A program made the position numbers and the translations under genes. The notes beneath the pieces are model-generated. The model made no database searches. It was not told the origin of the DNA and saw only the letters and a program-made list of their open reading frames with translations. Positions 10,402-28,545 of a stretch of DNA of 64,000 nucleotides are shown one piece after another. Source of the stretch: an uncultured Aquimarina sp. (GTDB lineage Bacteria > Bacteroidota > Bacteroidia > Flavobacteriales > Flavobacteriaceae); contig NZ_CANMQT010000002.1 of NCBI RefSeq assembly GCF_947500065.1, forward strand, positions 930,001 to 994,000, written 5' to 3'. Positions within the stretch are counted from its first letter, which is position 1, and each line of letters opens with the position of its first letter.

Positions 10402-10422
10402 TATATAAGAATTGTGTGTATT

Positions 10423-11874: not shown

Positions 11875-11918
11875 TTAAAGTCGGTTAAAAAATAATGATT
11901 CTAACAATATAAGAATTT

Positions 11919-12335
11919 CTAATTGTTTTCTTCAATTCTGTCTAACCTTATAGACAATGCTTTAGTGGAAATCTGAACCTCAATAAATGATAATAAAAGT
12001 GAAATCATCAAGGCAAATAAACTTATCCCAAATATTAAATTGGCTAAACTATTTTTTTCTACATATAATAAAAACATAGTGATTACACTGGTAAGAAAAC
12101 TAACAATAGCAATGGCTTGCATGTTTCTTATCAGCCACAATCGCTTTCTGAGGTTTTTAATTTGCAATACTGTGTTTTTTGATGGCGAGGTCAAATACTC
12201 TTTATGTAGCTGACGTATCAGAGCCGCTATCGCCAGATATCTGGCGTTATACGCTAACATTGTTAAAGATATTGCTGGAAAAAGTAATGCCGGAATACTC
12301 ATAGTAAGTGTCATAGAAAACTTTTTTATTGACAC
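11919..12335 (-). CDS. DUF2721 family membrane protein
   Basis: Small integral membrane protein of 138 residues. The pattern PAISLTMLAYNARYLAIAAL, then LIRQLH and a basic RKRLWLIRNMQAI segment, matches the DUF2721 family. Three hydrophobic segments are visible, at about residues 10-35, 73-95 and 100-120. Function is unknown for the family. It lies 44 bp upstream of the histidine kinase on the same strand and could be co-transcribed with it, in which case a membrane partner for the otherwise soluble kinase is conceivable (inference). Confidence 0.75.
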   Translation of the reverse strand: MSIKKFSMTLTMSIPALLFPAISLTMLAYNARYLAIAALIRQLHKEYLTSPSKNTVLQIKNLRKRLWLIRNMQAIAIVSFLTSVITMFLLYVEKNSLANLIFGISLFALMISLLLSFIEVQISTKALSIRLDRIEENN

Positions 12336-12420
12336 TAATGTACTTCAAAACTTATATTTCACTTGCTTTTTACCTAATAAATGATCTTTTACCAGATTAA
12401 AAACTTCATCACCATATATT

Positions 12421-12460
12421 AGAAAACAAAGTAGTGAACAAGTCTGGCTTGTTCACTACT
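12421..12460 (-). terminator. Terminator after collagen-like lipoprotein
   Basis: Perfect 12-bp stem GTAGTGAACAAG/CTTGTTCACTAC (12431-12442 and 12448-12459) with a 5-base loop. On the minus strand it is followed by a T-rich stretch (TTTGTTTT). It lies 36 bp past the stop of the collagen-like gene. Confidence 0.7.
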
Positions 12461-12495
12461 ACAAATCCTAAATAACAAATATTAAAGTCTAAAGG

Positions 12496-13050
12496 TTATT
12501 CTGGAATATTAAGTATTGCCGTTATGTCTTCATAGGACATATTTTTGAAATCTTCTAACGACTTGGAATTATTTATAGTCGCTCCTCCAGGAATAATTAT
12601 GTATCTGAAAACATCATTAAGAAAGGGTTCTCCTATATCGTTGATACCTATTCCCTCCACACCAATGTTAAGTGTTCCAGCGGTTATAACCCGGAAGAAA
12701 TAGTTTTCGTTTAAAAAACCATGAAATGTAACCGGAACCTGATAGATTGTGTTGGTTGTACTTCTTGCATATACCAGAATAGTACCTGTATCTAAAATCT
12801 CTTGTGTAATTTCTGGAGCGTCAATATTAAACGCGTCAAAACCATCTGTAATATCATTTTCAAAACCAGAATCTATCCAATCAGAATACATTACGTTTGC
12901 CGTTCCTGGTTCTCCTTGATCACCTTGTGGACCTTGTTCGCCCTGTTCTCCTTGTGGTCCAATAGCACCATCTTCTCCTTCACAGGAAAAAATCAATGCA
13001 GATAAAATCACTACAGGAATAAGCCTCACTAAATTTGTCATTGCTTTCAT
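12496..13050 (-). CDS. Collagen-like surface lipoprotein
   Basis: A 184-residue lipoprotein with a signal peptide ending LIFSC (Cys23). A short collagen-like run of Gly-X-Y triplets follows (about residues 29-50, rich in GEQ/GPQ/GDQ), then a globular C-terminal domain of about 130 residues. That domain shares YSDWI, YIIIPGG and a terminal DFKNMSYEDI-type helix with the protein encoded at 15648-16241, so the two are paralogues. The role is unknown; a trimerising stalk with a surface-exposed head is the obvious reading. The start is preceded by a -7 box and the 35-bp dyad operator (copy 1), which points to regulated expression. Confidence 0.8.
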   Translation of the reverse strand: MKAMTNLVRLIPVVILSALIFSCEGEDGAIGPQGEQGEQGPQGDQGEPGTANVMYSDWIDSGFENDITDGFDAFNIDAPEITQEILDTGTILVYARSTTNTIYQVPVTFHGFLNENYFFRVITAGTLNIGVEGIGINDIGEPFLNDVFRYIIIPGGATINNSKSLEDFKNMSYEDITAILNIPE

Positions 13051-13077
13051 TTTTTTACGATTTAAAAATTAATACAA

Positions 13078-13105
13078 CAAACCTAGTAATGGAAAGAAAT
13101 CCAAA
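13078..13105 (-). promoter_or_regulatory. Promoter of collagen-like lipoprotein gene
   Basis: On the minus strand, TTTG (13105-13102) is the -33 box. After 16 bases comes TAGGTTTG (13085-13078), a match to TAnnTTTG. It lies 27 bp before the ATG at 13050. The -33 box directly abuts dyad operator copy 1. Confidence 0.65.
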
Positions 13106-13140
13106 TGTCCGAAAAATTTGAAATTCAAAGAATTTGGACA
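13106..13140 (-). promoter_or_regulatory. 35-bp dyad operator, copy 1
   Basis: Dyad-symmetric element with outer half-sites TGTCC/GGACA and inner half-sites TTTGAA/TTCAAA around a single central base at 13123. It lies 55 bp upstream of the collagen-like gene and directly adjoins the -33 box. Four related elements lie at 14830, 16298, 18025 and 21238. Confidence 0.75.
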
Positions 13141-13233
13141 ATATTTAGGGGGTTTCCCTATATTCTTTGAGTGAAATGCCCCTATGTTTTTAATATTAAT
13201 CTTAGCAAGTTTCTTTATCGTTTGACTACATTA

Positions 13234-13935
13234 TTATTGTGTAAACCTAAATGCTCCCCTAACGTTTTCAATAGCATTATTTTGATCTAATCCTTCTCCC
13301 CATTGCCCAGTAAACGTAGCAGCTGGCGAACCATTTCTAGCATTCATAATACCCTTCAGTACTCGATTATTAGCATTAAAATTAATTGTTATCAGTGATT
13401 CATCTATAGTCCAAGTTCCGTCCATAGAAATTATATCACCATCACTAGTTCCTAATAACCCTACTGTACCTTCTTTTGTGAAGCTTATAGAATTATTGGA
13501 ATCAATCATAGATGTATCTGGATTATCAGATATGTCGTCATTGAAACCACCATAAAACAAACCTTCAATAAAAGTGTTATTTATTGTGACCGATATTGTT
13601 GTGCTTTCTAATGAATTGGATGCTGTTATAAAAACCTCTGTCTCACCTAGAGGGATTGATCTATCCCAAGAAAGCACACCTGTTTCTTCATCAATAGATA
13701 AATTTCTATTAAATAAATCATCTGGTGCTGTAATTGGTAATGTCGTAGCAGAAAATGTTCCCTTTTCTCCTGACCAATTTACTACTGGAGGTGCAGTTTC
13801 TCCTGCTTCTAAAAATAAGGTTTCAATAAAATTGTTTTCATATACGATTCTTAAATCATTAGAATCATCATCATTATTGCAAGCATGTATGATTATAAAA
13901 AATAGTAGTCCTCCTATATATTTAATTGTTTTCAT
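13234..13935 (-). CDS. Ig-like (He_PIG-type) lipoprotein A
   Basis: A 233-residue lipoprotein starting at MKTIKYIGG (13935). An upstream in-frame ATG at 13983 would put 16 residues ahead of a good signal peptide and is unlikely. The lipobox is IIHAC. The middle (about residues 30-130) contains LSIDEETGVLSWDRSIPLGETEVFITASN, broken here as a Putative-Ig (He_PIG)-like fold. The C-terminal 100 residues form a beta-rich lipocalin-like or TTHB-like domain (GTWTIDESLITINF, GSPAATFTGQWG). Lipoprotein B upstream has an almost identical N-terminal 125 residues but a diverged C-terminus. No dyad operator precedes this copy; a stem-loop separates the two genes. Confidence 0.75.
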   Translation of the reverse strand: MKTIKYIGGLLFFIIIHACNNDDDSNDLRIVYENNFIETLFLEAGETAPPVVNWSGEKGTFSATTLPITAPDDLFNRNLSIDEETGVLSWDRSIPLGETEVFITASNSLESTTISVTINNTFIEGLFYGGFNDDISDNPDTSMIDSNNSISFTKEGTVGLLGTSDGDIISMDGTWTIDESLITINFNANNRVLKGIMNARNGSPAATFTGQWGEGLDQNNAIENVRGAFRFTQ

Positions 13936-13974
13936 CTGTTCTTCAGTTAAAAAATTAGTGTTAATTTTATAATA

Positions 13975-14010
13975 GAACAGCAAACTTTTGGGTACTAAAG
14001 TTTACTGTTC
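13975..14010. terminator. Hairpin between the paired Ig-like lipoprotein genes
   Basis: A 14-bp stem GAACAGCAAACTTT/AAAGTTTACTGTTC (one wobble pair; 13975-13988 and 13997-14010) with an 8-base loop. It sits downstream of lipoprotein B and 40 bp upstream of the lipoprotein A start. It has no strong T-run on the minus strand, so it may be an attenuator or mRNA-stabilising stem rather than a clean terminator. Confidence 0.5.
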
Positions 14011-14053
14011 TTTTAATAGGGATGATAGCAGGTAAAAAAGTTTTTAAATCATT

Positions 14054-14776
14054 TTAATCGTTTTCAAATCTGAATATTCCCATCAAATTTTCAATATTAT
14101 TATTTTGATTTAACTCTTTCCCCCATTTCCCACTAAACAAAGCTGCTGGCAAACTATTTCTTCCATTCAAAAAACCTTTCATCACTAAGTTTTCTCCGGG
14201 ACTATTTGTAGTTATATAGTTAATAGTTATGTCCCCATCATCTGCTGTCCAGGTTCCTGTTCCGATAAAACTCACATCGCTATCACTAGTAGATGATAAT
14301 GCAGCAGTACCATCTTTAGATAGTATCAAAAAAGTATCATTTTCTATGGTAAAAAAGTTAGGCTCATCCGATGTATCGTTATTGAATCCACCAACAAAAA
14401 GACCTTCAATAAAAGTGTTATTTATTGTGACCGATATTGTTGTGCTTTCTAATGAATTGGATGCTGTTATAAAAACCTCTGTCTCACCTAGAGGAATCGA
14501 TCTGTCCCAAGAAAGCGCACCTGTTTCTTCATCAATAGATAAATTTCTATTAAATAAATCATCTGGTGCTGTAATTGGTAATGTCGTAGCAGAAAATGTT
14601 CCCTTTTCTCCTGACCAATTTACTACTGGAGGTGCAGTTTCTCCTGCTTCTAAAAATAAGGTTTCAATAAAACTGTTTTCATATTCGATTCTTAAACCAT
14701 TAGAATCATCATCACTAGTACAAGCATGTATGATTACAAAAAACACTAATACTCCTATATACCTAATTGTCTTCAT
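14054..14776 (-). CDS. Ig-like (He_PIG-type) lipoprotein B
   Basis: A 240-residue lipoprotein with signal peptide and lipobox IIHAC (Cys19). Residues from the N-terminus to about 125 are nearly identical to lipoprotein A, at both protein and DNA level. The C-terminal half keeps only scattered matches (GTWTADDGDITINY, LPAALFSGKWG, NIENLMGIFRF). Such a sharp border suggests recent duplication or gene conversion of the 5' part with a swapped or fast-evolving 3' part. Dyad operator copy 2 and a TATGTTTG -7 box lie upstream. Function unknown; the Ig-like domain suggests surface binding. Confidence 0.75.
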   Translation of the reverse strand: MKTIRYIGVLVFFVIIHACTSDDDSNGLRIEYENSFIETLFLEAGETAPPVVNWSGEKGTFSATTLPITAPDDLFNRNLSIDEETGALSWDRSIPLGETEVFITASNSLESTTISVTINNTFIEGLFVGGFNNDTSDEPNFFTIENDTFLILSKDGTAALSSTSDSDVSFIGTGTWTADDGDITINYITTNSPGENLVMKGFLNGRNSLPAALFSGKWGKELNQNNNIENLMGIFRFEND

Positions 14777-14801
14777 TTCTAAAATTTTAAAAATTACATA
14801 A

Positions 14802-14829
14802 CAAACATAGATATAGGCTGCTTTTTGAA
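14802..14829 (-). promoter_or_regulatory. Promoter of Ig-like lipoprotein B
   Basis: Minus-strand TATGTTTG (14809-14802) matches TAnnTTTG and lies 25 bp before the start at 14776. The -33 position is degenerate (TTC at 14829-14827, 17 bases upstream), next to operator copy 2. A weak -33 box would fit activator dependence (inference). Confidence 0.5.
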
Positions 14830-14864
14830 TATCCCATATATTTGATATTCAAAGAATTCGGACG
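14830..14864 (-). promoter_or_regulatory. 35-bp dyad operator, copy 2
   Basis: The right half is well kept (TTCAAAGAATTCGGACG), while the left half is the most diverged of the five (TATCCCATATATTTGA). It lies 53 bp upstream of the Ig-like lipoprotein B start. Confidence 0.65.
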
Positions 14865-14905
14865 TATTTACGGCAATTATCGTATAAAACAATCGTTTAA
14901 AATCG

Positions 14906-15508
14906 TCATCTATTTATATCAAAAATTTCTCCCGAATCGTACATCTCCTTTAGCTTTTCTATTGATATTCCATATGAGAATTCAGAATAATTTTCGGGCT
15001 TATTGATTTTGAATATTCTACTCTTTTTACTTATTTCATATTCATTGGGAGACACAAACACACTATCCCTTGAAACCGCAATTACTTTTAAAGTAGAATA
15101 ACTTCTTGTTTCAATTTTGTATTCATAAATATCACCGTTCATAGGAGATGCTATGTACTCTCCTGCTAACTTTTTATTTTCCGCACTTGCATAACTGCCC
15201 CAAGCAATCAAAACTATAAGTATACCCAATCCTGCAAATTGCCATATCGGTCCTTTAGTTTTATTTTTTAAGATATCGTACTCCCTTCTAATGGGTTCTG
15301 GCATCTCTTTAGTTTTAAGAACATTTTTACAATGCTGACACTGAGAAATTCCTTTTTTACCAATTGGAAATAGTGGAATCCAGAAAATATGAGCATGTCT
15401 TCTGAATACACTTAATGTCAAAGAGCCTTGCGTACTACAACTTGGACAAATAGCTGTTTTAGATTGTTCCGATTTTATATGAACTGCTCTACTTCCATAA
15501 ATTATCAT
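14906..15508 (-). CDS. Zinc-ribbon membrane protein
   Basis: A 200-residue protein. The N-terminus has paired Cys motifs CPSC (residues 21-24) and CQHC (residues 57-60), forming a zinc ribbon around FWIPLFPIGKKG. This resembles the zinc-ribbon-15-type proteins in which a membrane-proximal ribbon precedes a TM helix. One TM helix follows at about residues 92-110 (FAGLGILIVLIAWGSYA). The C-terminal about 85 residues (YEYKIETRSYSTLKVIAVSRDSVF-like beta strands) should lie outside the membrane. No dyad operator precedes it. Function unknown; it could be a membrane sensor or chaperone-like factor. Confidence 0.7.
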   Translation of the reverse strand: MIIYGSRAVHIKSEQSKTAICPSCSTQGSLTLSVFRRHAHIFWIPLFPIGKKGISQCQHCKNVLKTKEMPEPIRREYDILKNKTKGPIWQFAGLGILIVLIAWGSYASAENKKLAGEYIASPMNGDIYEYKIETRSYSTLKVIAVSRDSVFVSPNEYEISKKSRIFKINKPENYSEFSYGISIEKLKEMYDSGEIFDINR

Positions 15509-15589
15509 ATTCTTTTATTTTAATGGTTTACAACAAAATGAAAACAATAATGTTTTTTTAGAAAGGCAATGCAAACCTTACGTTTTAAA

Positions 15590-15626
15590 AAATAATTAAA
15601 TCCCCGAGACTAGATCTTGGGGATTT
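15590..15626 (-). terminator. Terminator after second collagen-like gene
   Basis: An 11-bp stem AATCCCCGAGA/TCTTGGGGATT (one wobble; 15599-15609 and 15615-15625) with a 5-base loop. On the minus strand it runs into AATTATTTTTT. It lies 22 bp beyond the stop at 15648. Confidence 0.75.
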
Positions 15627-15647
15627 TTAGATTACTATTCCAAGTGA

Positions 15648-16241
15648 TTATTGGATATTAAAAAGGGTTGCAATTTCTTCGTAAGACATGTTTTTATAAT
15701 CATTAACTGATTTTCCTGCAGCTACTCCACCAGGGATTATTACATATTTGAAACCCTGAAAGAATGCAAATGCACTAGTGGTACCATCCAATGTCGCCAC
15801 CTTAATCCTTAAGGTAAAACCTCCATTAAAACTAGCAACCTCAAAACCATAAAAATCATTTTCCGAAACATGTATGTAAGGAAGTTGGTTTATCTCAGTG
15901 ACTATAGCACTAATCTCTCGTCTACCATAAACTAATAGTATATCTTGAGTAAGGTCAAAATCGCCAAGACCTAATGTAGCCAACAATTGTTCATTGGTCT
16001 CTTCTGCTAATCCGCCGCTGTTGTCATAGTCTCTAGCTATCCAATCAGAATAAATCACATTCGCTGTTCCTGGATCACCTTGATCTCCCTGATCCCCATC
16101 AAGACCTTGATCTCCTTGCTCTCCTTGTTCGCCTTGTTCGCCTTGTGGCCCAACTGCTCCATCTTCTCCTTCACATGAGATAATACCTACTGATAGTAAT
16201 AAAACCACTACACATCCAATTAAATTTTTCATTGCTTTCAT
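15648..16241 (-). CDS. Collagen-like surface lipoprotein, paralogue
   Basis: A 197-residue lipoprotein with lipobox GIISC (Cys23). The Gly-X-Y collagen-like stretch at about residues 29-58 is slightly longer than in the paralogue at 12496-13050. The same architecture follows: IYSDWIA, a beta-rich head, YVIIPGG and a final DYKNMSYEEIATLF. The heads have diverged while the signal peptide, stalk, and closing motifs are conserved. Upstream are a TTTG/TAAGTTTG promoter and dyad operator copy 3, placed as in the paralogue, so both genes probably answer to the same regulator. Confidence 0.8.
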   Translation of the reverse strand: MKAMKNLIGCVVVLLLSVGIISCEGEDGAVGPQGEQGEQGEQGDQGLDGDQGDQGDPGTANVIYSDWIARDYDNSGGLAEETNEQLLATLGLGDFDLTQDILLVYGRREISAIVTEINQLPYIHVSENDFYGFEVASFNGGFTLRIKVATLDGTTSAFAFFQGFKYVIIPGGVAAGKSVNDYKNMSYEEIATLFNIQ

Positions 16242-16269
16242 TTTATAAAAGTTTTTTATGTTAATGAAG

Positions 16270-16297
16270 CAAACTTAAAAAGAGAGTGTATTTCAAA
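16270..16297 (-). promoter_or_regulatory. Promoter of second collagen-like gene
   Basis: Minus-strand TTTG (16297-16294), a 16-base spacer and TAAGTTTG (16277-16270), 28 bp before the ATG. Spacing and position are the same as in the promoter at 13078-13105. The -33 box abuts operator copy 3. Confidence 0.65.
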
Positions 16298-16332
16298 TAT
16301 CCGAAAAGCTTGAATTTCAATGAATTCGGACG
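16298..16332 (-). promoter_or_regulatory. 35-bp dyad operator, copy 3
   Basis: Outer half-sites TATCCGAA and TTCGGACG with inner CTTGAA/TTCAAT, 56 bp upstream of the second collagen-like gene. Position relative to promoter and start codon matches copy 1. Confidence 0.75.
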
Positions 16333-16355
16333 TTTTAAATAGATGTATGCAAAAT

Positions 16356-16502
16356 TTAAAACAGTCTAGTTAATTTTGATTTCTCATGAATAATTCCATT
16401 TTCTATCTCAAACTGAGACATTTCAATGGTCGCTTTAGTATTTTGAATTAATTTACGCTTGTTTAAATCATACTTTTTTGAATCTTCGAATTTTGCTCCC
16501 AT
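16356..16502 (-). CDS. Small hypothetical protein (48 aa)
   Basis: An intact 48-residue reading frame from ATG at 16502 to TAA at 16356. It starts MGAKFEDSKKYDLNKRKLI and ends SKLTRLF. It is charged, without signal peptide or membrane segment. Codon use and composition look coding (many Lys, Glu, Asn as in neighbours). It starts 37 bp after the stop of the 16540-17193 lipoprotein on the same strand, so it could be the last gene of that unit. Its stop lies 23 bp from dyad operator copy 3. It could also be the surviving piece of a longer gene. Function unknown. Confidence 0.45.
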   Translation of the reverse strand: MGAKFEDSKKYDLNKRKLIQNTKATIEMSQFEIENGIIHEKSKLTRLF

Positions 16503-16539
16503 TTACTGTTTTTTTCATATCCAGAAAATTCTTCTATCA

Positions 16540-17193
16540 CTATAATTTACTTTTAGATACTAGTTTTTTACAAGAAATGATTTGTGTCAGTTCTGATCCA
16601 AGTCCTATTTCCTCCCAAAGATGAAGATCTTCTTCAATCGAAAGAGGGTTTTGATCTGATTGAATGTATTTCTTAATAGATTGAATCTTAGGGTCGGACC
16701 GTCCATTGATTTTTAATATTGATTTACCGCCTGGAATACTGATACTACCTTCATATTCATAAAAAAACACAATCACTTTGTCTCCTTTTTTAACATCTAC
16801 CTGATTAAAACAATCTGAAGCAATGAATTCTTCTTCTTGATAGGTTTTGTTTTCAAGGTTACCTGCTATAAGTACTTCATCTATTTTTATGATTCCTGTC
16901 TGGGATACATATCGTTCTTGCTCTGTTTTTTTATAAATCTCATCAATTGTTCCTAGAACAACCAAACTATATTTTTCACCACAATTACCAATAAATGGTC
17001 CTGATTGTAGCCACCAGTACGTATAACCTATAGTAAGGGTATCTCTTAATTTGGTTTCTATACTAGAAATCTTTTCTGATTCCGAATTCCTTGATTTATT
17101 ATAGTTACAGCTTAAACTAAAAAAACATAGTAAGCATCCTAATAAAACCTTATTCTTTTTTACAATTGAGTTCATTTGAACTATTTTCATCAT
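16540..17193 (-). CDS. Hypothetical lipoprotein
   Basis: I do not recognise this family. The protein has 217 residues, with an N-terminal signal ending FSLSC (Cys29). The start could be the annotated MMKIV or the internal MNSIV, seven residues later. The body contains the pairs GNCG (about residue 68) and SDCF (about residue 128) and a beta-rich middle (VVLGTIDEIYK, GIIKIDEVLIAGN, GDKVIVFFYEYEG), which vaguely recalls OB-fold-like TIMP/netrin-type modules; that is only a resemblance. It starts 2 bp after the stop of the SIMPL-domain gene, so the two form an operon. Confidence 0.6.
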   Translation of the reverse strand: MMKIVQMNSIVKKNKVLLGCLLCFFSLSCNYNKSRNSESEKISSIETKLRDTLTIGYTYWWLQSGPFIGNCGEKYSLVVLGTIDEIYKKTEQERYVSQTGIIKIDEVLIAGNLENKTYQEEEFIASDCFNQVDVKKGDKVIVFFYEYEGSISIPGGKSILKINGRSDPKIQSIKKYIQSDQNPLSIEEDLHLWEEIGLGSELTQIISCKKLVSKSKL

Positions 17194-17195
17194 AA

Positions 17196-17780
17196 TTACT
17201 CTAGTGAAAAAGTAACCTTAACATAATATTTTGTTGGTTCTTTTACAGCAACTACATTATAATATTTGTATTTATTATTCAGGTTTTCAATTTGGATAAT
17301 CTCACCAACCTTTTTCCCAATATTGACAGCTATTTGGTTAGCTGTATTTCTTGCATCATTCACTGCTTCTTTACTTAGTGTTCCTATTTGTTCGTTAGTC
17401 ATCTGTTTAGCTATAATGTCTACTTTTGTATTGGTAACACCTTCTATTTTTTTACTTATAATTTTCTTCACTTCATCTAACGAAGTTGTTTTATAAAAAT
17501 AGAAAGCAGAAGTGGTATAAGCATATGAAGAAATACGATACATTATATTCTCTTTACTTAAAGCAGCGGCAAATTCCTTTTCTAATTCGCTCACTGTTTT
17601 TCCTTTTATATTTCTATAAGTATCACCTATAACATCTCTAAACTCTACATTAACAATATAGGTCTCAATTTCATTAATTTTATCCGCTTCGCCAAAAACC
17701 GAAATAGAATGTTCTTGTTGTGCATATAAAAAACCGTGGCAAAGTATGAAGACTAAAAGTATTTTTTTTATGAAGCTCAT
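17196..17780 (-). CDS. SIMPL-domain (DUF541) periplasmic protein
   Basis: A 194-residue exported protein with a cleavable signal peptide ending LYAQQ. The mature N-terminus HSISVFGEADKI and the helix ARNTANQIAVNIGKKVGEIIQIEN are typical of SIMPL/DUF541 proteins, a periplasmic or outer-membrane-associated family linked in other bacteria to stress responses and folding around membranes. It heads a pair with the 16540 lipoprotein (2-bp gap). Operator copy 4 lies 244 bp upstream, too far to match the 53-56 bp geometry of the other copies, so regulation by it is uncertain. Confidence 0.7.
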   Translation of the reverse strand: MSFIKKILLVFILCHGFLYAQQEHSISVFGEADKINEIETYIVNVEFRDVIGDTYRNIKGKTVSELEKEFAAALSKENIMYRISSYAYTTSAFYFYKTTSLDEVKKIISKKIEGVTNTKVDIIAKQMTNEQIGTLSKEAVNDARNTANQIAVNIGKKVGEIIQIENLNNKYKYYNVVAVKEPTKYYVKVTFSLE

Positions 17781-17868
17781 CGCGTATTTTTTTTAATGTT
17801 TATTATAAATATTTAGTTGTTGATCTAATTAAAGAGAATTTTTTATTCTACTTGAACATGTTTTTTCA

Positions 17869-17964
17869 CTATCCAAACTCGTTGTCCTTAAGATAGTAAG
17901 GGTGTTCTAAAAACTCACAAAAATCAAGATGATTATACTTTTTATTATAATCTATTCCATTAAA
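17869..17964 (-). pseudogene. Possible gene remnant downstream of operator copy 4
   Basis: A 31-codon frame without its own ATG, closing with TAG at 17869. It reads as plausible protein (segments FNGIDYNKKYNHLDF, CEFLEHPYYLKDNEFG). It could be the 3' end of a gene whose 5' part was deleted or frameshifted. The frame is short and could be chance. Confidence 0.3.
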
Positions 17965-18024
17965 TCATGTTCATACGTTTTTTCGTAAATCCGAATTGAA
18001 GGTAAGCAGCAGTATTTACCTAAA

Positions 18025-18059
18025 TGTCCGAAAAGTTTGAATTTCAAAGAATTAGGATA
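18025..18059 (-). promoter_or_regulatory. 35-bp dyad operator, copy 4 (orphan)
   Basis: Well-conserved copy: TGTCCGAA left outer arm and TTTGAATTTCAAA core, with right arm TTAGGATA. No intact start codon lies at the usual distance; the SIMPL gene begins 244 bp away. Confidence 0.65.
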
Positions 18060-18125
18060 TTATAAAGATTTAAGTAATGGATAAATTTATAGACAGATAA
18101 CTAATTGTTTTAAGGTTTAATGTTA

Positions 18126-19436
18126 CTAAAACTTTGTTCCGCGAACTTTAATAGCATATACCAGAATGATAATAAAGACAAGGATTAAAAAGAAAACTAC
18201 TGTAGGTATATTGGTCTGGTTTTCATCTATTTTCTCTTGTTCTTTTACTAGCGTTGTATCAGTTTCGGTTTCTAAATTATCCTTCAAAAAAATAGTGTCC
18301 TTAGGCAAGAGTTTTAGATTAATAGTATCATTTGGTTTGTTTTTTCGATACTTATTTTCAACCATCTCAATTGAAGTATTTGTTTCCTGAATTCGAGCTC
18401 CAAGTGATGGTTCTTGATAATATTTTTTAGAAAATTCCTCTTCCGGGTTTTGACCAAGTTGTATCCATTCTATTTCATCGTTACGAATCCTTTGATAAAA
18501 ATCATTTCCTTCTGCTATTTCCTGTTTCAAAAGTTCTTCTAACTCTTGTGTGGTAAACCTTTTTCCTCCTTTTTTTGTGTATTGATGATACAGGGCAAAT
18601 GCTACTTTTTGTTCATAAATACTTTTTGTTTCTGGTTGTTTACTATGATAAGAAGCTTTAAAATAAGCTCTTGATGCTAATTGCCTGGCTCCATTTTTCC
18701 AACCGTTAGCAACTAATAAATCTCCTAATGCTTCTAATAAAACTGGCGAATCATAATTGCCAAATTTCATCATTCCCATAATACCTTTAATAGCTCTATC
18801 AAGCTCTTCTTTAGGTAATATGTTATTTTCTAAAGGAGTTTCTGTTTTGCTACTATATTTATTAGTTAAAAAAGTATAAAAATTATCTAATTTATGCCTC
18901 GGGAAACGCTCAAAACTAGGACTGAAATCTACAGACAAAGGCAGTACTACTTTTCCATTCTTCATCCTACTTAATACATATTCTACTAGATGTCGTTGAT
19001 ATATTTCTCTTCCGAAATGAGCATTAGGATTGATCGCAATTGCTTTATCTATATAGGTTAACCCTTTAGAAAATTGGCCGTCATGGATATAAAAAGTTCC
19101 TAAATTGGCGTATGTTTTATAGTTTTTTGGAGCAATACTATCTTTTTTCAGAATAACCTGAATCGCCTTTGAGTCATTACCGATTTTTGAATATGCAACC
19201 GCAAGATCATCGTATAGTTCTAAACTATCAGGAAACTTCTGAAGCTTTAAAGTTCTATCTTGTATTCTCCATTGATAGAACTCAGGTGAGTGCCTCAAAA
19301 ACTTTCCTGATATTAATTCAATTACATCTGGAAATTGTATTCTTTCCATCTCTATAGTGTCATAATCCCAAAAACAAGAATACCCAAAAAAACAAGTAGA
19401 AAAGGTACATACTAAAAATAGTGCAAGTCGTTTCAT
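18126..19436 (-). CDS. TPR-repeat exported protein with C-terminal membrane anchor
   Basis: A 436-residue protein with a signal peptide and possible lipobox FGYSC (Cys21). Tetratricopeptide-like helices span about residues 60-150 (LYDDLAVAYSKIGNDSKAIQVI; YANLGTFYIHDGQFSKGLTYIDKAIAINP split across two units). A longer helical region follows, then a single TM helix at about residues 407-427 (VVFFLILVFIIILVY) and a short basic tail. The role is unknown; TPR proteins usually act as scaffolds. With both an N-terminal signal and a C-terminal TM, most of the chain should face the periplasm, anchored in the inner membrane. It is followed by the operator-4 gap. Confidence 0.7.
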   Translation of the reverse strand: MKRLALFLVCTFSTCFFGYSCFWDYDTIEMERIQFPDVIELISGKFLRHSPEFYQWRIQDRTLKLQKFPDSLELYDDLAVAYSKIGNDSKAIQVILKKDSIAPKNYKTYANLGTFYIHDGQFSKGLTYIDKAIAINPNAHFGREIYQRHLVEYVLSRMKNGKVVLPLSVDFSPSFERFPRHKLDNFYTFLTNKYSSKTETPLENNILPKEELDRAIKGIMGMMKFGNYDSPVLLEALGDLLVANGWKNGARQLASRAYFKASYHSKQPETKSIYEQKVAFALYHQYTKKGGKRFTTQELEELLKQEIAEGNDFYQRIRNDEIEWIQLGQNPEEEFSKKYYQEPSLGARIQETNTSIEMVENKYRKNKPNDTINLKLLPKDTIFLKDNLETETDTTLVKEQEKIDENQTNIPTVVFFLILVFIIILVYAIKVRGTKF

Positions 19437-19446
19437 ATCATAAATT

Positions 19447-19496
19447 TAAAAAAAGGATCCTCATCACTGTCGATTAGGTTAGATAATGAGGACCCA
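19447..19496 (-). terminator. Terminator after repeat lipoprotein gene
   Basis: Minus-strand stem GGGTCCTCAT/ATGAGGATCC (19495-19486 and 19464-19455), followed by seven T. It lies about 50 bp beyond the stop at 19549. Confidence 0.75.
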
Positions 19497-19548
19497 CTAG
19501 TAATGAAAAGCAATTGGACAAAAACCTAATCATTACACACTCCTGCTA

Positions 19549-21114
19549 TTATTCTAACTTAATAACCCAATAGTCAAAATCTCCTGTAGTTCCTTCTCCG
19601 CTTCCGGTAATATTAGTATACCAAGTACCCGTTGCGATAAAACCATCATCTGATGTTTGCTGAATAGAAAAAGCATAATCATCTCCTTCATCACCTAAGT
19701 TTTTTTGCCATACAATAGCTCCATTAGGTTCTAATCGTATAATCCAAAAGTCTGAAGCTCCATTATTATCTGCTACATCTTCATCATTAGAACTAGAATT
19801 TCCTATAGCAATATATCCTCCATCATTGGTTTGGTGTATATCACTTATGCCCTCTGATCGAGAACCACCAAAGGTTTGTTTCCATTGTATATTCCCAGCT
19901 ATATCAGTTTTGATGATTATAGCATCATTACCTCCTTTATTTTCTCCGATATCTCCATCGTTAGATTCAGAATATCCCGCAATTATGTAACCTCCATCTG
20001 ACGTTTGTTCTATGGATTCTGCTTCTTCATTTTCAGTACCTACAAATGATTTCTCCCAACTAAGATCTCCTGTAGCATCTAGTTTTGCGATCCACATATC
20101 TCTTTTGTTATCGTTAGTTTCTGTATAGCCTGCTATAATATATCCTTGATCGGTAGTCTGATCCACAGAAAAGGCAATATCTCTTTGTGAACCTCCTAAA
20201 TTGGTTTCCCATTGAAAAACTCCTGATGCATTCAGTTTTATAACCCAAGCATCAGATTGACCACTTACATCAAACTGATCCGAACTTGAAAACCCGACTG
20301 CTACATATCCTCCATCTGATGATTGAATAATCGACTCAAGAATATCATCACTAGAACCGCCCACATTGTTTTCCCATTCTATTGATCCTGATGCATTCAA
20401 TTTTACAATCCAAAAATCACGCATGCCATTATTCGCTGATACATCTCCATCACTAGAGGAAGAAAAAGCTCCTACAATAAATCCGCCATCTGTGGTTTGT
20501 TTTATATCATGTACTGTATCATTATTGGAGCCACCTATATTTGTTTCCCATTGTATGGTGCCTTGACTATCTAGTTTTACAATCCAACAATCTTTATTCC
20601 CGTTATTTCCTGAAACATTACCATCATCAGATTCTGAGGAACCAGCTACAATATAGCCTTGATCATTTGTTTGCCAAATACTATATGCTTCATCATTACT
20701 TGTACCTCCTAAGGATTTTTGCCAAGCAATAGATACCATCGTGTCTATTGTTTCATTTGTTGTAAATGTAAAAGTACTTTCGAAAACACCATTATTACCA
20801 TCAGAAGCGATAACGGATCCGTTATAATTAATATTGGGCGAAAGTTCCTCTAATAAATACTCTGTATCCGTAATAGAGGAGGCGATTTCAGTTCCATTTA
20901 ACATAATCTCATATGAAACGACATCACCATCTGGATCGATAGCAGAATTCCAGGTTAATAATGCGCTATTATCAGTAATTTCAGTGGCTTCTACAGAAAA
21001 ATCTTCTGGGTTTTGATTTTGAAGTGAGGTAATTGTTTCATCATCATTTTTGCAACTAATGATTGCTAGACCCATTAGCATAAATAGGTGTAAAAAATTA
21101 TTCTTTTTCATCAT
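19549..21114 (-). CDS. Fibronectin-III plus beta-propeller-like repeat lipoprotein
   Basis: A 521-residue surface lipoprotein with lipobox LAIISC (Cys21). A fibronectin type III-like domain follows at about residues 35-125 (VEATEITDNSALLTWN; LSPNINYNGSVIASDG). About seven repeats of roughly 52 residues then run to the C-terminus, each patterned GG..D....I.QT.DGGYI..G.S.S.DGD......DFWI.KL...G...W. This is the delta-60/SBBP-like beta-propeller family. It is a clear paralogue of 44671-46026, which lacks the Fn3 domain. Likely role: adhesion or ligand binding at the cell surface (inference). Upstream are a hairpin and dyad operator copy 5. Confidence 0.8.
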   Translation of the reverse strand: MMKKNNFLHLFMLMGLAIISCKNDDETITSLQNQNPEDFSVEATEITDNSALLTWNSAIDPDGDVVSYEIMLNGTEIASSITDTEYLLEELSPNINYNGSVIASDGNNGVFESTFTFTTNETIDTMVSIAWQKSLGGTSNDEAYSIWQTNDQGYIVAGSSESDDGNVSGNNGNKDCWIVKLDSQGTIQWETNIGGSNNDTVHDIKQTTDGGFIVGAFSSSSDGDVSANNGMRDFWIVKLNASGSIEWENNVGGSSDDILESIIQSSDGGYVAVGFSSSDQFDVSGQSDAWVIKLNASGVFQWETNLGGSQRDIAFSVDQTTDQGYIIAGYTETNDNKRDMWIAKLDATGDLSWEKSFVGTENEEAESIEQTSDGGYIIAGYSESNDGDIGENKGGNDAIIIKTDIAGNIQWKQTFGGSRSEGISDIHQTNDGGYIAIGNSSSNDEDVADNNGASDFWIIRLEPNGAIVWQKNLGDEGDDYAFSIQQTSDDGFIATGTWYTNITGSGEGTTGDFDYWVIKLE

Positions 21115-21146
21115 ATTTATTTTTATTATCTGAAGTAATTAAATCA

Positions 21147-21177
21147 CTCATAAGGATGTCTCAAACATCTTTATGAG
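21147..21177 (-). other. Leader hairpin of the Fn3/repeat lipoprotein gene
   Basis: A 12-bp stem CTCATAAGGATG/CATCTTTATGAG (one wobble) with a 7-base loop, 32 bp upstream of the ATG and between it and operator copy 5. It could be an attenuator, a 5' stabilising stem or a second protein-binding dyad. Confidence 0.45.
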
Positions 21178-21237
21178 AATCGTATTTGATTATTGAGTTA
21201 CTCTTGTAATAAATTTAAATAGGATTGAGGCGAGAAG

Positions 21238-21272
21238 TATCCAGAAAGTTTGAATTTCAAAGAATCAGGACA
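21238..21272 (-). promoter_or_regulatory. 35-bp dyad operator, copy 5
   Basis: Core TTTGAATTTCAAA with outer arms TATCC and GGACA; it lies 123 bp upstream of the Fn3/repeat lipoprotein gene. It ends 3 bp before the last coding base of the GAF-AraC regulator gene (21276), so regulator and site are physically adjacent. Confidence 0.7.
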
Positions 21273-21275
21273 TTT

Positions 21276-22568
21276 TCAACCAGTTTTTCTATAACTACTT
21301 GGTGAAATTCCTGTCATTTTTTTAAATGAACTATAAAATGTGGACTTGGAATTAAATCCTGATTCTAAAGCAATACCAACAATAGTATAATTTATAAAAT
21401 TGATATTCCTTAATTTTAACTTAGCGTCTTCTACTCTAAATGTATTTATATAATCTGCGAAATTTTTGCCGGTTAGTTTATTGACTAATTGGGATAAATA
21501 ATTGCTGCTAATTTTGAGTTTACCCGCCACACTATCTAATCCTAAATTAGGATCTCTATATAATTTTGCTTCCTTCATTAAGAACTCTAATTCTTTATAA
21601 TATGTATTATCATTTGTAATATGACAAGTTGCGCTATTACTGCATATCTGTTTTAGCTTTTTTTCTGTAAGTTTTGCTATTAAATGAAATAAGAATACAT
21701 GATCATTGGTGAAAAAATTCTTTTCTGAATGTTCAGAATCTAATACACCTATAATCGTGCCTTCAATACATATTGGTACTGATAACTCTGACATTCTAGA
21801 AGCATCATCAATAATATATGCTTTATTTTTACGTACATCATTGATACGTTGATATCTTTTTGATTTGGCAACATTCCCAACAATACCATCTCCCATTTCT
21901 ATTTTTATTGGACTTACAATCTTTTTCTCTCCATTATTTTTATTCCCAAAAGCAGCTTTTTGGATTAAATACTGTTTTTCTTTATCAAGCATATAGATAA
22001 CACAATCTTCTAAGTGAAGGTGAGAAATACAATTTTCTACAATATCCCAGAGTACATCATTAACATTGTTCTTTTCAAAAAGTGACGTCGCAAAATAACT
22101 TAGTATAGAAATTGTCTGAATAGGTGCATTATGTAAATAATCTTCATCGAATTCCTGAAAAACCTCATCAAGATAAGGTATGGATAAAGTAGTTTTTTTA
22201 TGTGCAGATGGTTCTTCCTTTTTAGTATCTGTTCCTCTCTTATGCTGCTTTAGATTTAAAGAAGTTTTTTCTGGAATATTATTCTGATCAAACGAAATAT
22301 AAAAATAATTGTCTAGTAACAACAAGTTTGATTTTTCTATGAACACATAAAAAAGGAAAATAGATAAAGTCACAGGAATAACCCAAAAGTTTATTCCCAT
22401 ACGTATATCACTATTTAATAAAGGTTCATAATTTTTTAATGTATAAAGTATACTTGTAATAGTTACAAATAGCATACAAGGTTTAAAAAGTTTATGAATT
22501 GTTTCTGAGGCATTTTTATTGCCTGATTTTTTCTGAATGTCCATTTTGATTTTTTTTGTCCTTACCAA
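21276..22568 (-). CDS. Membrane-anchored GAF-domain AraC-type regulator
   Basis: A 430-residue regulator. Two TM helices lie near the N-terminus (about residues 30-46 and 58-78). A GAF sensor domain spans about residues 150-305 (CISHLHLEDCVIYML, QKAAFGNKN, GDGIVGNVAKSKRYQRI, SVPICIEGTIIGVLDSEHSEKNFF). A C-terminal AraC/XylS HTH pair occupies about residues 330-428 (LKISSNYLSQLVNKLTGKNFADYI; GIALESGFNSKSTFYSSFKKMTG). It is homologous to the regulator at 26751-28442 along GAF and HTH but has only two TM segments. A start at 22544 (MDIQKK) is possible. Operator copy 5 lies directly beyond its stop, which makes it the leading candidate for the factor that binds the dyad elements. Confidence 0.85.
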   Translation of the reverse strand: MVRTKKIKMDIQKKSGNKNASETIHKLFKPCMLFVTITSILYTLKNYEPLLNSDIRMGINFWVIPVTLSIFLFYVFIEKSNLLLLDNYFYISFDQNNIPEKTSLNLKQHKRGTDTKKEEPSAHKKTTLSIPYLDEVFQEFDEDYLHNAPIQTISILSYFATSLFEKNNVNDVLWDIVENCISHLHLEDCVIYMLDKEKQYLIQKAAFGNKNNGEKKIVSPIKIEMGDGIVGNVAKSKRYQRINDVRKNKAYIIDDASRMSELSVPICIEGTIIGVLDSEHSEKNFFTNDHVFLFHLIAKLTEKKLKQICSNSATCHITNDNTYYKELEFLMKEAKLYRDPNLGLDSVAGKLKISSNYLSQLVNKLTGKNFADYINTFRVEDAKLKLRNINFINYTIVGIALESGFNSKSTFYSSFKKMTGISPSSYRKTG

Positions 22569-22746
22569 AAACTATTCGTATTAAATCTCAAAAGAGAGAC
22601 TATAAAATTCAAATCGTTTTTGATTGCTTTCAATTATAAAAGCAAGGTAAAACAAGAATCAAATGTTGTGTTGTACTATCGTTACCATTACTTGTACTAC
22701 AGTTACATGAATGTATTATCTACTGTAAATAGAGCGATTATATCCG

Positions 22747-25700
22747 TTATTTTCTAGATTCAGAAGGAGGTTTTCCGAATTCTTCCACATATACTCGAGA
22801 GAAATATGCTGGATCCTTAAACCCTGTTTGATATGCGATCTCTGCAATAGAATATTCTTTATTATTCAATAAATCACGCGCATGTTGTAATCTAATTTTA
22901 CGAATAAATTTTGTTGGAGACATGCCTGTTAGGTTTTTAATCTTTCTGAATAAATGGACTCTACTCATATGTAATTGTTCTGCCAATACAGGTATACTAA
23001 ACTCATCATTATCCATATGGTCTTTTACAATATCGATAACAGACTGCATAAAGCCGTCTATAACTTTATTTTCTGAAACGTTCCCTACGTCCTCTTGATC
23101 ATACTTTTCTCGAAGTTTCGTTCTGGTATGAATTAAGTGATTTACTCTAATCAACAATTCTTCTCTATCAAAAGGCTTTGCCAAATACGCATCTGCTCCA
23201 ATTTTTAAGCCTTCGATTTGACTATGTTGGCTCGCCTTAGCAGTTAAGAAAATAAGAGGAATATGATCTGTGGCAATATGACTCCTAATCATTGAACCTA
23301 ATTTAATACCATCCCATTTAGGCATCATAATATCAGAAATCACAAGATCTGGAAGATGTTCTTGACATAACTCCCACGCTTCCTGACCATTATTGGCTAA
23401 TACCACCGTATAACTTGATGCCAAACAAAATTGAATATACTCTTGTACTTCTTTATGATCTTCTGCTACTAAAACTATTGGTAAAGATGAATCCTGCAGG
23501 ATCAAATCTTCTTCCGAATTCAGAAAATCTGAAGATACGATCACAGGCGTACTTATTGTAAATGTAGTTCCTAATTCTTCTTTACTTTCTACTCTAATAT
23601 TCCCTTTCATTAGTTCCACAAGTTCTTTGGTCAATGTTAAACCTAAACCTACTCCGTTTTCATTTTCGGTTTGTGATCTTGTAAAAGGGTCATATAGAAT
23701 TTTCATGAAATCAGAAGAAATTCCAATACCCGAGTCCTTAACAATAACATTTATCCTAGAACTATCTTCATCTTCTACATAGTTTATTTTTAAAGACACT
23801 TTTCCTCCAACTACATTATATTTAATAGCATTAGAAACTAAATTTGTAGTAATTTTTCTCCATTTATCTTCATCATAATACATATGTAATTCTTCTTGAT
23901 CACTAGAAAACGTAAGTGAAATTTCTTTTTCCTCGGCAAGGGATTTAAATGAATACAATAGATACCGCTGAAAAGAAACAAAATCCCCAAGCTGCTCATT
24001 CATCTCCAATTGATCTTCTTGCATCTGTGCTATTTCCAAAATTTGATGTACTTGATTGGATAAATGATTTGCTTGGTTTTCGATCTGATGTAAATACTTA
24101 TCTTCTTTGTTCGAAGTATCTTTAACAGATCTATTTCTTATCTGATCTACAGCTCCTAAAATAACTGTAAGAGGAGTTCTAAACTCATGAGCAATCTGAT
24201 TAAACCATCGTGTTTTAACTTCTGCTAAACTAGAAACATGTTCTTTCTCGGTTTCAGCTATTTTTCTTCTTAATTGAATTTTATAAAAAGTATAAATTAA
24301 TAACAATAAAAATAGGCTATATGCCAAATACGCAACATTGGTTTTATACCAAGGAGGTAATACTAAAACTGATATTGGTTCATGTAGTACTTCCCATTTA
24401 TTTTCCGAACTAGATGCTCTAACATGCAATTTGTATTTTCCTTTGGGTAAATATGATAATGTAATTAATCCTTTTTCCTGTACTGGCAACCAATCGTTAT
24501 GAAACCCTTGTAACCAAAACTGATATCTAACATTTTCTGGTTCTTTAAAGGTTAATGCTAAAAATTGAAAACTAACATTCTGATCTTCAGAACGCACCCT
24601 AATTACATCATTTAATTTATTAGGAAAATGATTGGTTATGATTGTATCCTTACGATGCTTTACATATGATGACCAAATCAAATTAGGTTTGTAATCTGAA
24701 GCGACACTCAATTCTTCTGGATGAAAATAGTTCACGCCTCTTTCACTTCCTGTCCAGATATATCCGTCTGCGGCTCGATAAATAGAACTCAACAACATGG
24801 AGTTATCGTATAAACCATCCTCGACCGTATACGTATTGAATTCATTTGTTGTAGGATTAAATGATGTAATCCCATGACTTATGGTACTTAACCATAATAC
24901 TCCATTCTTATCACTGGTAATATTTAATACTTTATCATCTGGCATCTTATCATCCCTCATATATCTCGTAAATTTCTCTTCTTCGATATCCATACGATTT
25001 AAGCCACCATCAGTTCCTATCCATAATTTGCCATCATTTGTTTGGTGTAAAGACATCACCAAATTAGAACTAACACTACTATCATCATTCTTATCATGTA
25101 CAAAGCGTTTAAAATTAGAATCAGAAGATGCTACAAATTTACTAGCATTAGAAAGTTTAACAAGACCTCCACTTATAGTGGCTAACCATAAATTGTCTTT
25201 TTTATCTAAAAATAAATCAACAATTGCTATGTTCTTCTTAGTTACCTTAAGTCTAAAATAACTTCCATCAGTCGTATCATAGACCATCATATGATTCCAG
25301 TGTGTAATCCACAAACGCTTATTTGCATCTTCAATTATTCTCCAAGGACTACTTGGCATTTTTTCAGATTCAAAAATTTGCTCAACTACACTCTCATTTT
25401 TAGCGTCTATTTTTAAAATTCCAACAAATTCATTTTTAAACAACCCATAAACAGCACCATTAGAAGCACAAGCTAAGGATGTCATTCTATAATCAGAGAT
25501 TTTTTTTAATGGTGTTCCTTTAATTTTATCCCAAGTATATAATCCATCAGGTAGGGTAAACCACATTTTACCTTCACATTCTACAATTTCTCTAGCATTT
25601 CCAACAGCCCCTAGAATTGGATGTCTAAACGGTTTGTTCTCTATAAGCTGAAAAGCACCTGCATTTGTTCCTATCCAAAAATCATTATCTCTATCCTGAA

Positions 25701-26625
25701 AAATACAAAGTAACCTTAAGCGTTTTGAAAAATCATATCCTAATAAATCCTGCGCATCAAATACTATTTGCGTTTTAAAATCTGGAGAAAATTTCCATAT
25801 TTTTTTCCCGGCAGCTAGCCAGATCCAATCTCGATTATCCTGAAAGAAAAATGACTTATCGGTTGCATTACTAATATAAGAGCTATCAAAATCTAACCTC
25901 TCTTTTACCCATCGATCATTTTTTTCCTCTATACTATATAACTCATTAGCTATATATACTAATGTCTTATTATTAGATAGTGTGAGAATATTAGAAATGA
26001 TTCTTCCTTTAAATAGATCTAACTTTTTGGTAATAGTATCCTTTACCTCGAATAATCCTTCATTACTTGCAATTAATGATCTTCCATCATTAAGAACTGA
26101 AATATTTGATGATCTTTTATTATAAACTCGTTTTAATGTCTGACTTTTAGGAGTATACTTATAAGCACCACTTGTAGAAGATATCCAAAGATTTTCTTTT
26201 CCATATTTGGTCAAATTATTGACCATCAATATATCTTTTTCACTCTCTAATTCCTCAAGATTTTCGAATACTCCGCTATGTGGATCCAAAATGTCGATTC
26301 CTCCTCCTAGAGTACCTATATATAGTTTACCATCACTTAGCTGAAGAATTGATCTCACCCAATTACCCGTTAGGCTTTTTGGGTTTTTTGATGTATATGT
26401 GTATTTTTCATACGATTGCCCATCAAATCTATTAAGGCCATATTGAGTGGCAAACCACATAAAACCATCTTCGTCCTGAAATATATCAGAAACCCAATTA
26501 TTAGACAACCCATTAAAAACATTATATGATTTAATGTTATAAGTAACCTCCGCTTGTCCAGAAACATCCAAACACAATACTATAAAGCACGCAACAAATA
26601 CTACTAATTTATGAATGCACTTCAT
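22747..26625 (-). CDS. Hybrid two-component system sensor/regulator (HTCS)
   Basis: A one-protein signalling system of 1292 residues. In order: signal peptide (to about residue 23); a periplasmic double beta-propeller of Reg_prop repeats (DIFQDEDGFMWFAT; LWIGTDGGLNRMD); a Y_Y_Y domain at about 700-765; a TM helix at about 780-800; HisKA with His813 (HEFRTPLTVILG); HATPase boxes NLVSNAIKYN, DSGIGIS and GVGLGLTLTKEL; a receiver with Asp1098 (VISDIMMPKWDG); and an AraC HTH pair to the C-terminus (IAEIAYQTGFKDPAYFSRVYVEEFG). HTCS proteins normally sense glycan fragments and switch on polysaccharide utilisation loci, but no susC/susD pair lies in this window. GAF-AraC paralogues flank it on both sides. 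Confidence 0.93.
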   Translation of the reverse strand: MKCIHKLVVFVACFIVLCLDVSGQAEVTYNIKSYNVFNGLSNNWVSDIFQDEDGFMWFATQYGLNRFDGQSYEKYTYTSKNPKSLTGNWVRSILQLSDGKLYIGTLGGGIDILDPHSGVFENLEELESEKDILMVNNLTKYGKENLWISSTSGAYKYTPKSQTLKRVYNKRSSNISVLNDGRSLIASNEGLFEVKDTITKKLDLFKGRIISNILTLSNNKTLVYIANELYSIEEKNDRWVKERLDFDSSYISNATDKSFFFQDNRDWIWLAAGKKIWKFSPDFKTQIVFDAQDLLGYDFSKRLRLLCIFQDRDNDFWIGTNAGAFQLIENKPFRHPILGAVGNAREIVECEGKMWFTLPDGLYTWDKIKGTPLKKISDYRMTSLACASNGAVYGLFKNEFVGILKIDAKNESVVEQIFESEKMPSSPWRIIEDANKRLWITHWNHMMVYDTTDGSYFRLKVTKKNIAIVDLFLDKKDNLWLATISGGLVKLSNASKFVASSDSNFKRFVHDKNDDSSVSSNLVMSLHQTNDGKLWIGTDGGLNRMDIEEEKFTRYMRDDKMPDDKVLNITSDKNGVLWLSTISHGITSFNPTTNEFNTYTVEDGLYDNSMLLSSIYRAADGYIWTGSERGVNYFHPEELSVASDYKPNLIWSSYVKHRKDTIITNHFPNKLNDVIRVRSEDQNVSFQFLALTFKEPENVRYQFWLQGFHNDWLPVQEKGLITLSYLPKGKYKLHVRASSSENKWEVLHEPISVLVLPPWYKTNVAYLAYSLFLLLLIYTFYKIQLRRKIAETEKEHVSSLAEVKTRWFNQIAHEFRTPLTVILGAVDQIRNRSVKDTSNKEDKYLHQIENQANHLSNQVHQILEIAQMQEDQLEMNEQLGDFVSFQRYLLYSFKSLAEEKEISLTFSSDQEELHMYYDEDKWRKITTNLVSNAIKYNVVGGKVSLKINYVEDEDSSRINVIVKDSGIGISSDFMKILYDPFTRSQTENENGVGLGLTLTKELVELMKGNIRVESKEELGTTFTISTPVIVSSDFLNSEEDLILQDSSLPIVLVAEDHKEVQEYIQFCLASSYTVVLANNGQEAWELCQEHLPDLVISDIMMPKWDGIKLGSMIRSHIATDHIPLIFLTAKASQHSQIEGLKIGADAYLAKPFDREELLIRVNHLIHTRTKLREKYDQEDVGNVSENKVIDGFMQSVIDIVKDHMDNDEFSIPVLAEQLHMSRVHLFRKIKNLTGMSPTKFIRKIRLQHARDLLNNKEYSIAEIAYQTGFKDPAYFSRVYVEEFGKPPSESRK

Positions 26626-26750
26626 GGATTTTTATAAGTCTAATAAAAATTAATTGGGTTTATTCCTTATTGTAAAAGAACAACTTTTTTTACAATATCT
26701 AGTTTTAAGATAATGGTATAAAGAGTTTTGAGTCAATGGATAGTTTTGGA

Positions 26751-28442: not shown

Positions 28443-28545
28443 TACGTTGGTTAATAAACTTTTATAAAAGGTAACAAAAAAGATTGATTGTCTTTATATA
28501 ATTGTCCAAATAAATTCTAAACGTAATAAATTTATATATCTGTTT

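Follow-up and report, generated by a model that had tools for sequence, protein, structure and literature searches.

The window, a stretch of 64,000 nucleotides from an uncultured Aquimarina sp. (assembly GCF_947500065.1, contig NZ_CANMQT010000002.1, positions 930,001 to 994,000), contains five copies of a 35-bp dyad in a cluster of genes for lipoprotein-like proteins and AraC-type regulators (Table 1). The copies start at 13106, 14830, 16298, 18025 and 21238, as an earlier sequence-only reading of the window had reported. Its further claims on their placement are exact: copies 1, 2 and 3 stand 55, 53 and 56 bp ahead of start codons, and no copy lies inside an accepted gene. Copy 5 starts 3 bp past the stop codon of a gene for a GAF-AraC protein. 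The arrangement described after copies 1 and 3, TTTG followed after 16 bp by TAnnTTTG, was verified, as was the degenerate -33 position of copy 2, which reads TTCA instead of TTTG. At the offset of the -7 box, copy 5 carries TAAATTTA and copy 4 a decayed TACCTTCA.

The gene-sense consensus of the five elements, on the minus strand, is approximately YRTCC-NNATTC-TTTGAA-W-TTCAAA-CTTTTC-GGAYA, and 20 to 26 of the 35 letters of each match their own reverse complement. A symmetric dyad pattern with at most 3 mismatches finds four of the five in the window, against a mean of 0.00 in 100 shuffles; the remaining one, at 21238, is recovered by the asymmetric consensus instead. The five dyads are real and non-random.

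Table 1 Putative operator copies, -7 boxes, candidate regulators and neighbouring genes, in positions of the window
Feature	Position	Strand	Remarks
Operator copy 1	13106..13140	-	precedes the collagen-like lipoprotein gene 12496-13050; matrix score 50.7 bits
-7 box TAGGTTTG	13078..13085	-	20 bp after copy 1
Operator copy 2	14830..14864	-	pattern and consensus match
-7 box TATGTTTG	14802..14809	-	20 bp after copy 2
Operator copy 3	16298..16332	-	pattern and consensus match
-7 box TAAGTTTG	16270..16277	-	20 bp after copy 3
Operator copy 4, probable orphan	18025..18059	-	pattern and consensus match
Decayed -7 position TACCTTCA	17997..18004	-	after copy 4
Operator copy 5	21238..21272	-	consensus match; 3 bp past stop of GAF-AraC gene
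-7 box TAAATTTA	21210..21217	-	20 bp after copy 5
Probable regulator A	21276..22568	-	hydrophobic N-terminal part, GAF, AraC-type HTH_18; ATG at 22544
Probable regulator B, paralogue of A	26751..28442	-	about seven long N-terminal helices, GAF, AraC-type HTH_18
Hybrid two-component protein (HTCS), AraC output	22747..26625	-	rival regulator, between A and B
Target of copy 1: 184-aa collagen-like lipoprotein	12496..13050	-	Pfam Collagen 21.3 bits, below cut-off 27.2
Target of copy 2: 240-aa protein, group T9	14054..14776	-	lipoprotein-like start by eye; unflagged by crude regular expression
233-aa lipoprotein-like gene	13234..13935	-	same-strand paralogue of the copy 2 target, lying behind it
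Target of copy 3: 197-aa collagen-like lipoprotein	15648..16241	-	Pfam Collagen 28.6 bits, cut-off 27.2
SIMPL-domain protein, probably exported	17196..17780	-	next gene after copy 4, 244 bp away
Target of copy 5: 521-aa fn3 and repeat lipoprotein	19549..21114	-	123 bp behind copy 5
950-aa sortilin-like BNR-repeat protein	28546..31398	-	upstream neighbour of the regulators in many genomes

Sites in the genome and in related genomes

Searching the whole 6.57-Mb genome with the asymmetric consensus yielded six places, namely the five window copies and C1:884586, and none in the reversed control; a looser symmetric pattern returned the identical six. The sequence-only reading had proposed such a scan and had named scatter of the motif as the outcome that would speak against it; no such scatter was seen. 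Its proposal of one DNA-binding regulator with a surface-lipoprotein regulon is supported by these six genome sites, given their absence from the control. The sixth site stands about 110 bp upstream of a 154-aa open reading frame (ORF) with a lipoprotein-like start. A still looser pattern gave seven places, the seventh unlisted, against one in the control.

Related genomes were surveyed with a position matrix trained on 64 distinct pattern hits from the loci of 37 relatives and the window, and scored on the same cluster loci that had served for its training. It found 143 sites of at least 26 bits in 67 of 77 sources, and the reversed sequence of the same 796,000 bases gave no hit of at least 12 bits. 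The sources (37 cluster loci, the window, L104 and 38 further loci) were nearly all chosen for holding a pattern hit, so that the presence of a site is selected; the offset of the -7 box was not a criterion. One of them, L144, is an arbitrary 1-kb stretch of G084, unmatched to the hit of that genome. Lower scores, the weaker strand of each place and the distal sites of some genomes, G001 and G065 among them, fall outside the set of 143, and L105 and L106 outside the scan. In the genome-wide pattern search, the reversed control gave a hit in 3 of 140 genomes, and G084 and G124, which are outside the genus, have one hit each.

Among the 142 sites with a next gene, that gene is co-directional in 128, and 58 of these 128 sites stand 52 to 57 bp from it. 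Twelve sites overlap an ORF; nine of these ORFs have at most 61 codons and are probably spurious, and three have 101 to 227 codons.

Several like copies in one orientation at one locus would also agree with a mobile or recombination repeat, such as a repetitive extragenic palindromic (REP)-like element, a miniature inverted-repeat transposable element (MITE) or a promoter inversion site. Yet only six copies occur in 6.57 Mb by two patterns, next genes are mostly co-directional with the sites, and the sequence diverges while its geometry is kept; in addition, no recombinase family turned up among the 20 window proteins scanned, in a search that was not aimed at recombinases. On copy number, orientation and drift with kept geometry we reject this explanation, to which we assign next to no probability.

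A -7 box at a single fixed spacing

In 125 of the 143 sites, TAnnTT starts exactly 20 bp past the element (full TAnnTTTG in 64), while the background frequency of TAnnTT is 2,200 in 208,836 sampled positions (about 1%). Flavobacterial promoters have TTTG as their -33 element. The TTTG -33 box that the sequence-only reading had described is present at copies 1 and 3, but it is not a conserved part of the arrangement: among the 125 sites whose -7 box lies at offset 20, only 5 have it and 120 lack it. The sites resemble flavobacterial sigma-A promoters in the box that comes after them, which fits the TAnnTTTG -7 consensus, and differ from them in the missing TTTG.

Passages of PMC9723704 place the TAnnTTTG -7 box at -12 to -5, and no TTTG is found in them. 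With the box so placed, the element would cover about -67 to -33, reaching the place of the -33 box. Since TTTG is not conserved there, the element probably takes over the role of the -33 box, as an activator site would.

The site could conversely be the operator of a repressor, or of a repressing state of the GAF-AraC protein. Dyad symmetry is common in repressor operators and copies 1 and 3 have a usable TTTG; however, the constant distance at which the site precedes the -7 box, together with the rarity of TTTG at -33, fits activation better, and we regard repression as unlikely.

Candidate regulators

The sequence-only reading had left its single regulator unnamed; the comparison of genomes now points to the GAF-AraC gene that ends 3 bp from copy 5. 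Its product, regulator A, matches HTH_18 with 66 bits (cut-off 33.6) and HTH_AraC with 42 bits (cut-off 26.6), and its paralogue B with 67.4 and 41.7 bits, both above the cut-offs. The predicted structure of B (mean predicted local distance difference test score, pLDDT, 80.7; predicted template modelling score, pTM, 0.54) has about seven long N-terminal helices, which we read by eye from the sequence as membrane helices, followed by a GAF fold and a helix-turn-helix (HTH) part. GAF domains were the best PDB matches in the structure search; neither this nor the family search gave a ligand for the GAF domain. In an alignment of 21 GAF-AraC sequences, cysteine 309 of B is invariant and cysteine 318 nearly so; a redox role for them is a guess.

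In the cluster loci, a site stands -8 to +176 bp from the stop codon in 40 of 53 GAF-AraC genes. The 13 others are all of B type: in nine cases the HTCS gene and A come next and the site follows A, and the remaining four are in G010, G041, G050 and G064. G006, G029, G040 and G048 have a compact form, consisting of regulator, site and collagen-like lipoprotein. Of 11 named loci encoding a relative of the regulator, eight are Aquimarina, including all with more than 70% identity.

Across 66 genomes of the genus, a regulator relative (E 1e-80 or better, a threshold picked after a gap was apparent in the match list) occurs in 34 of the 37 that have a site and in 1 of the 29 that have none (Fisher p 3.5e-14, uncorrected for relatedness among the genomes; table transcribed by hand). 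G015, G054, G034 and G011 are the exceptions. The site of G034 is a poor hit, probably due to chance; G011 has a regulator and no pattern site, and a looser scan of it gives one weak place about 2.6 kb away.

Hybrid two-component systems with AraC output are represented in the cluster by the HTCS protein, and its AraC-type DNA-binding domain might bind the dyad instead. A relative of it (27-31%) is encoded just upstream of the regulator in 8 of the 16 diverged relatives described below; the other eight have no match at E 1e-8 in the stretch examined. In the four genomes with the compact form, where the site stands behind the GAF-AraC gene, no HTCS match of at least 200 bits occurs in the 20 kb examined in each. 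We regard binding by the HTCS protein as very improbable.

A gene of about 323 aa beside palindromic distal sites was set aside as a regulator candidate; from its sequence we take it to be endonuclease/exonuclease/phosphatase-like.

HTH_18 matches this genome 93 times, in 92 cases above the cut-off. A general rule of a long AraC gene followed by a dyad and a -7 box at offset 20 was unsupported: in a test of 35 long AraC genes and 5 short controls that demanded this fixed offset, only L284 and L290 reach 11 of 17 pairs (L271 and L287 have the HTH at the front of a longer protein, and L307 was unparsed). The diverged dyads of L284 (G000:C4:524027-524972) and L290 (G000:C2:624834-625773) lie at the stop codon of long AraC genes, with an outer part GTTC/GAACA in L284 and GGAACA on one side only in L290, and carry TAGGTTTG or TAGTTTTG at offset 20.

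Target genes

Most targets look like lipoproteins: a crude lipoprotein pattern matches 115 of the 128 co-directional next genes, versus 161 of 571 others. By BLAST, 127 co-directional next genes fall into 21 groups, of which T13, T14 and T19 look spurious; 14 or 15 of the 18 plausible groups have a lipoprotein-like start by eye. The largest, T0, consists of collagen-like lipoproteins, with 40 members in 29 loci, and others include fn3/repeat and Kelch lipoproteins, small uncharacterised lipoproteins and an acyltransferase-like membrane protein. Group T5 holds double-glycine peptides from five loci (L077, L079, L112, L117 and L119); the one member tested scores 20.9 bits with Pfam ComC (cut-off 20.4) and stays under the cut-offs in NCBIfam.

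In the window, the targets of copies 1, 2, 3 and 5 are lipoproteins or lipoprotein-like proteins, and copy 4 has probably lost its target. Copy 4 aligns at 91% over 56 bp with the site that L071 has before its Kelch lipoprotein gene. In positions 10001-30000 of the window, the stretch searched, tblastn found no Kelch gene; copy 4 is therefore probably a relic, orphaned of its target gene.

The promoters of T6-type lipoprotein genes (L005, L114, L115, L122, L127, L130 and L135 to L138) have a palindrome, TCTAAATTTAGA, a few bases past the -7 box, and the gene on their opposite side is FeoA-like by eye.

Diverged relatives in other genera

Regulator relatives at E 1e-40 or better were found in 22 of 397 genomes of the family, two of them Aquimarina. 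Sixteen diverged relatives were examined, 15 in other genera (L196 to L208, L101 and L102) and that of G011 (L100); five weak genomes of the 22 (G151, G166, G206, G265 and G430) were left out. A consensus-free dyad scan brought out diverged sites in four of the 16 (L197, L199, L202 and L208), followed there by a -7 box at offset 20. With a consensus drawn from Aquimarina sites and from sites first met in the preceding scans, the consensus-free one among them, 13 of the 16 have a site of the same -7 offset that scores at least 18 within -58 to +280 bp of the stop codon; none of 3,039 control windows attains this score, and L202 (15), L206 (17) and L100 (13) stay below it. The site sequence drifts among these relatives while the geometry stays, and in several of them the regulator gene runs with its own 3' end into the site. 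The second recognition helix, GFNSKS, is kept in 15 of 16; G011 (L100) has GFKSKS and no adjacent site. Comparing the first HTH helix with the inner half-site by eye across the diverged relatives gave no clean link.

On the 397 genomes, the dyad pattern gave 42 places in 35 genomes and about 32 in the reversed control: the pattern alone is not discriminating here, whereas adjacency to an AraC gene is. Twenty-nine of 30 pattern loci were parsed. An AraC gene ends close to the site in 13 of them, another 2 are sites of Aquimarina, and the remaining 14 lack an AraC match over about 3 kb. With a reversed control of almost the same size, some of these 14 are surely chance hits; L211 and L233, which belong to the 14, even so have dyad-like ends. 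In five of the 13 (L218 and L236 to L239), the AraC protein has by eye a hydrophobic front and no GAF domain.

Genes of sdhCAB sizes often come after the module in L196 to L208. In the trio of L196, the flavoprotein subunit is a strong match, the iron-sulphur subunit matches Fer2/Fer4 and the cytochrome subunit is below the cut-off.

A proposed operator of a membrane-linked activator

Each 35-bp dyad is likely to serve as operator for a membrane-linked GAF-AraC activator whose gene belongs to this cluster, the one at 21276-22568 and/or its paralogue at 26751-28442. Several points weigh against this assignment. AraC proteins frequently bind direct repeats instead of inverted ones. The regulators of G010, G041, G064 and G050 have no site of at least 26 bits behind them, and each of these genomes has distal sites. 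G015 has a perfectly palindromic site and no close GAF-AraC relative, nor any AraC match in the surrounding 19 kb, and G054 has a site and only a short regulator relative (63% over 114 residues). Among the diverged relatives, L202 keeps GFNSKS with no site directly behind the regulator, its site being behind the next gene, and the score of L206 is also reached by 5 of 3039 control windows. Finally, similar sites behind other membrane-looking AraC proteins make this type of site not exclusive to the GAF branch.

Starting from the computed sites, their fixed geometry, the missing -33 box and the association with the regulator gene, we infer binding, activation over repression, a dimer stoichiometry and a signal, as follows. 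A dimer would bind two inverted 17-bp half-sites (approximately TRTCCGAANNNTTTGAA). An AraC monomer places its two HTH motifs in successive major grooves, and TCC and TTGA, about 10 bp apart in each half-site, would fit the two motifs of one monomer. As the operator ends at the -33 place, 20 bp before the TAnnTTTG -7 box, the bound dimer would substitute for the missing -33 contact and recruit RNA polymerase. On sensing a signal through its membrane or GAF part, the activator would in this way turn on a set of surface lipoproteins, chiefly collagen-like, together with a few distal genes.

Relation to known systems and significance

Regulators A and B share with AraC/XylS activators (Pfam HTH_18 and HTH_AraC) the C-terminal double HTH above the cut-offs, a site by the core promoter and a regulator gene beside its target. 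Unlike these, they have a GAF domain and, in B, about seven N-terminal helices; the putative operator is a 35-bp inverted repeat whose place is the 3' terminus of the regulator gene, with or without overlap, and the surface-lipoprotein targets are dispersed. TIGR04094, the YSIRK-targeted surface antigen transcriptional regulator of a Gram-positive system, is likewise AraC-type and named for its adjacency to surface antigens, and its HTH matches A with 34.3 and B with 42.1 bits; these scores are far below the cut-off of 200 bits, so that A and B are not members. No published description of this operator or regulon was found in titles, abstract openings and passages of PMC9723704, nor, in the same literature, an operator of any membrane-linked AraC protein of such kind.

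More tentatively, and as a possibility rather than a probability, membrane-embedded AraC proteins may be one-component receptor-activators throughout the Flavobacteriaceae, each driving the following gene from an operator that replaces the -33 box and sits at the 3' end of the protein's own gene or overlaps it. The GAF branch of Aquimarina would then have distributed this operator among the genes of many unrelated surface lipoproteins and of a few ComC-like double-glycine peptides, the latter a possible feedback signal.

AraC proteins can number in the dozens in flavobacteria. With an operator defined, a regulator proposed and the promoter geometry fixed, a directly testable rule follows, by which the operator and the first target would be sought just behind the regulator gene. 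The proposal also assigns a common control to several surface lipoproteins of unknown function, some of them collagen-like.

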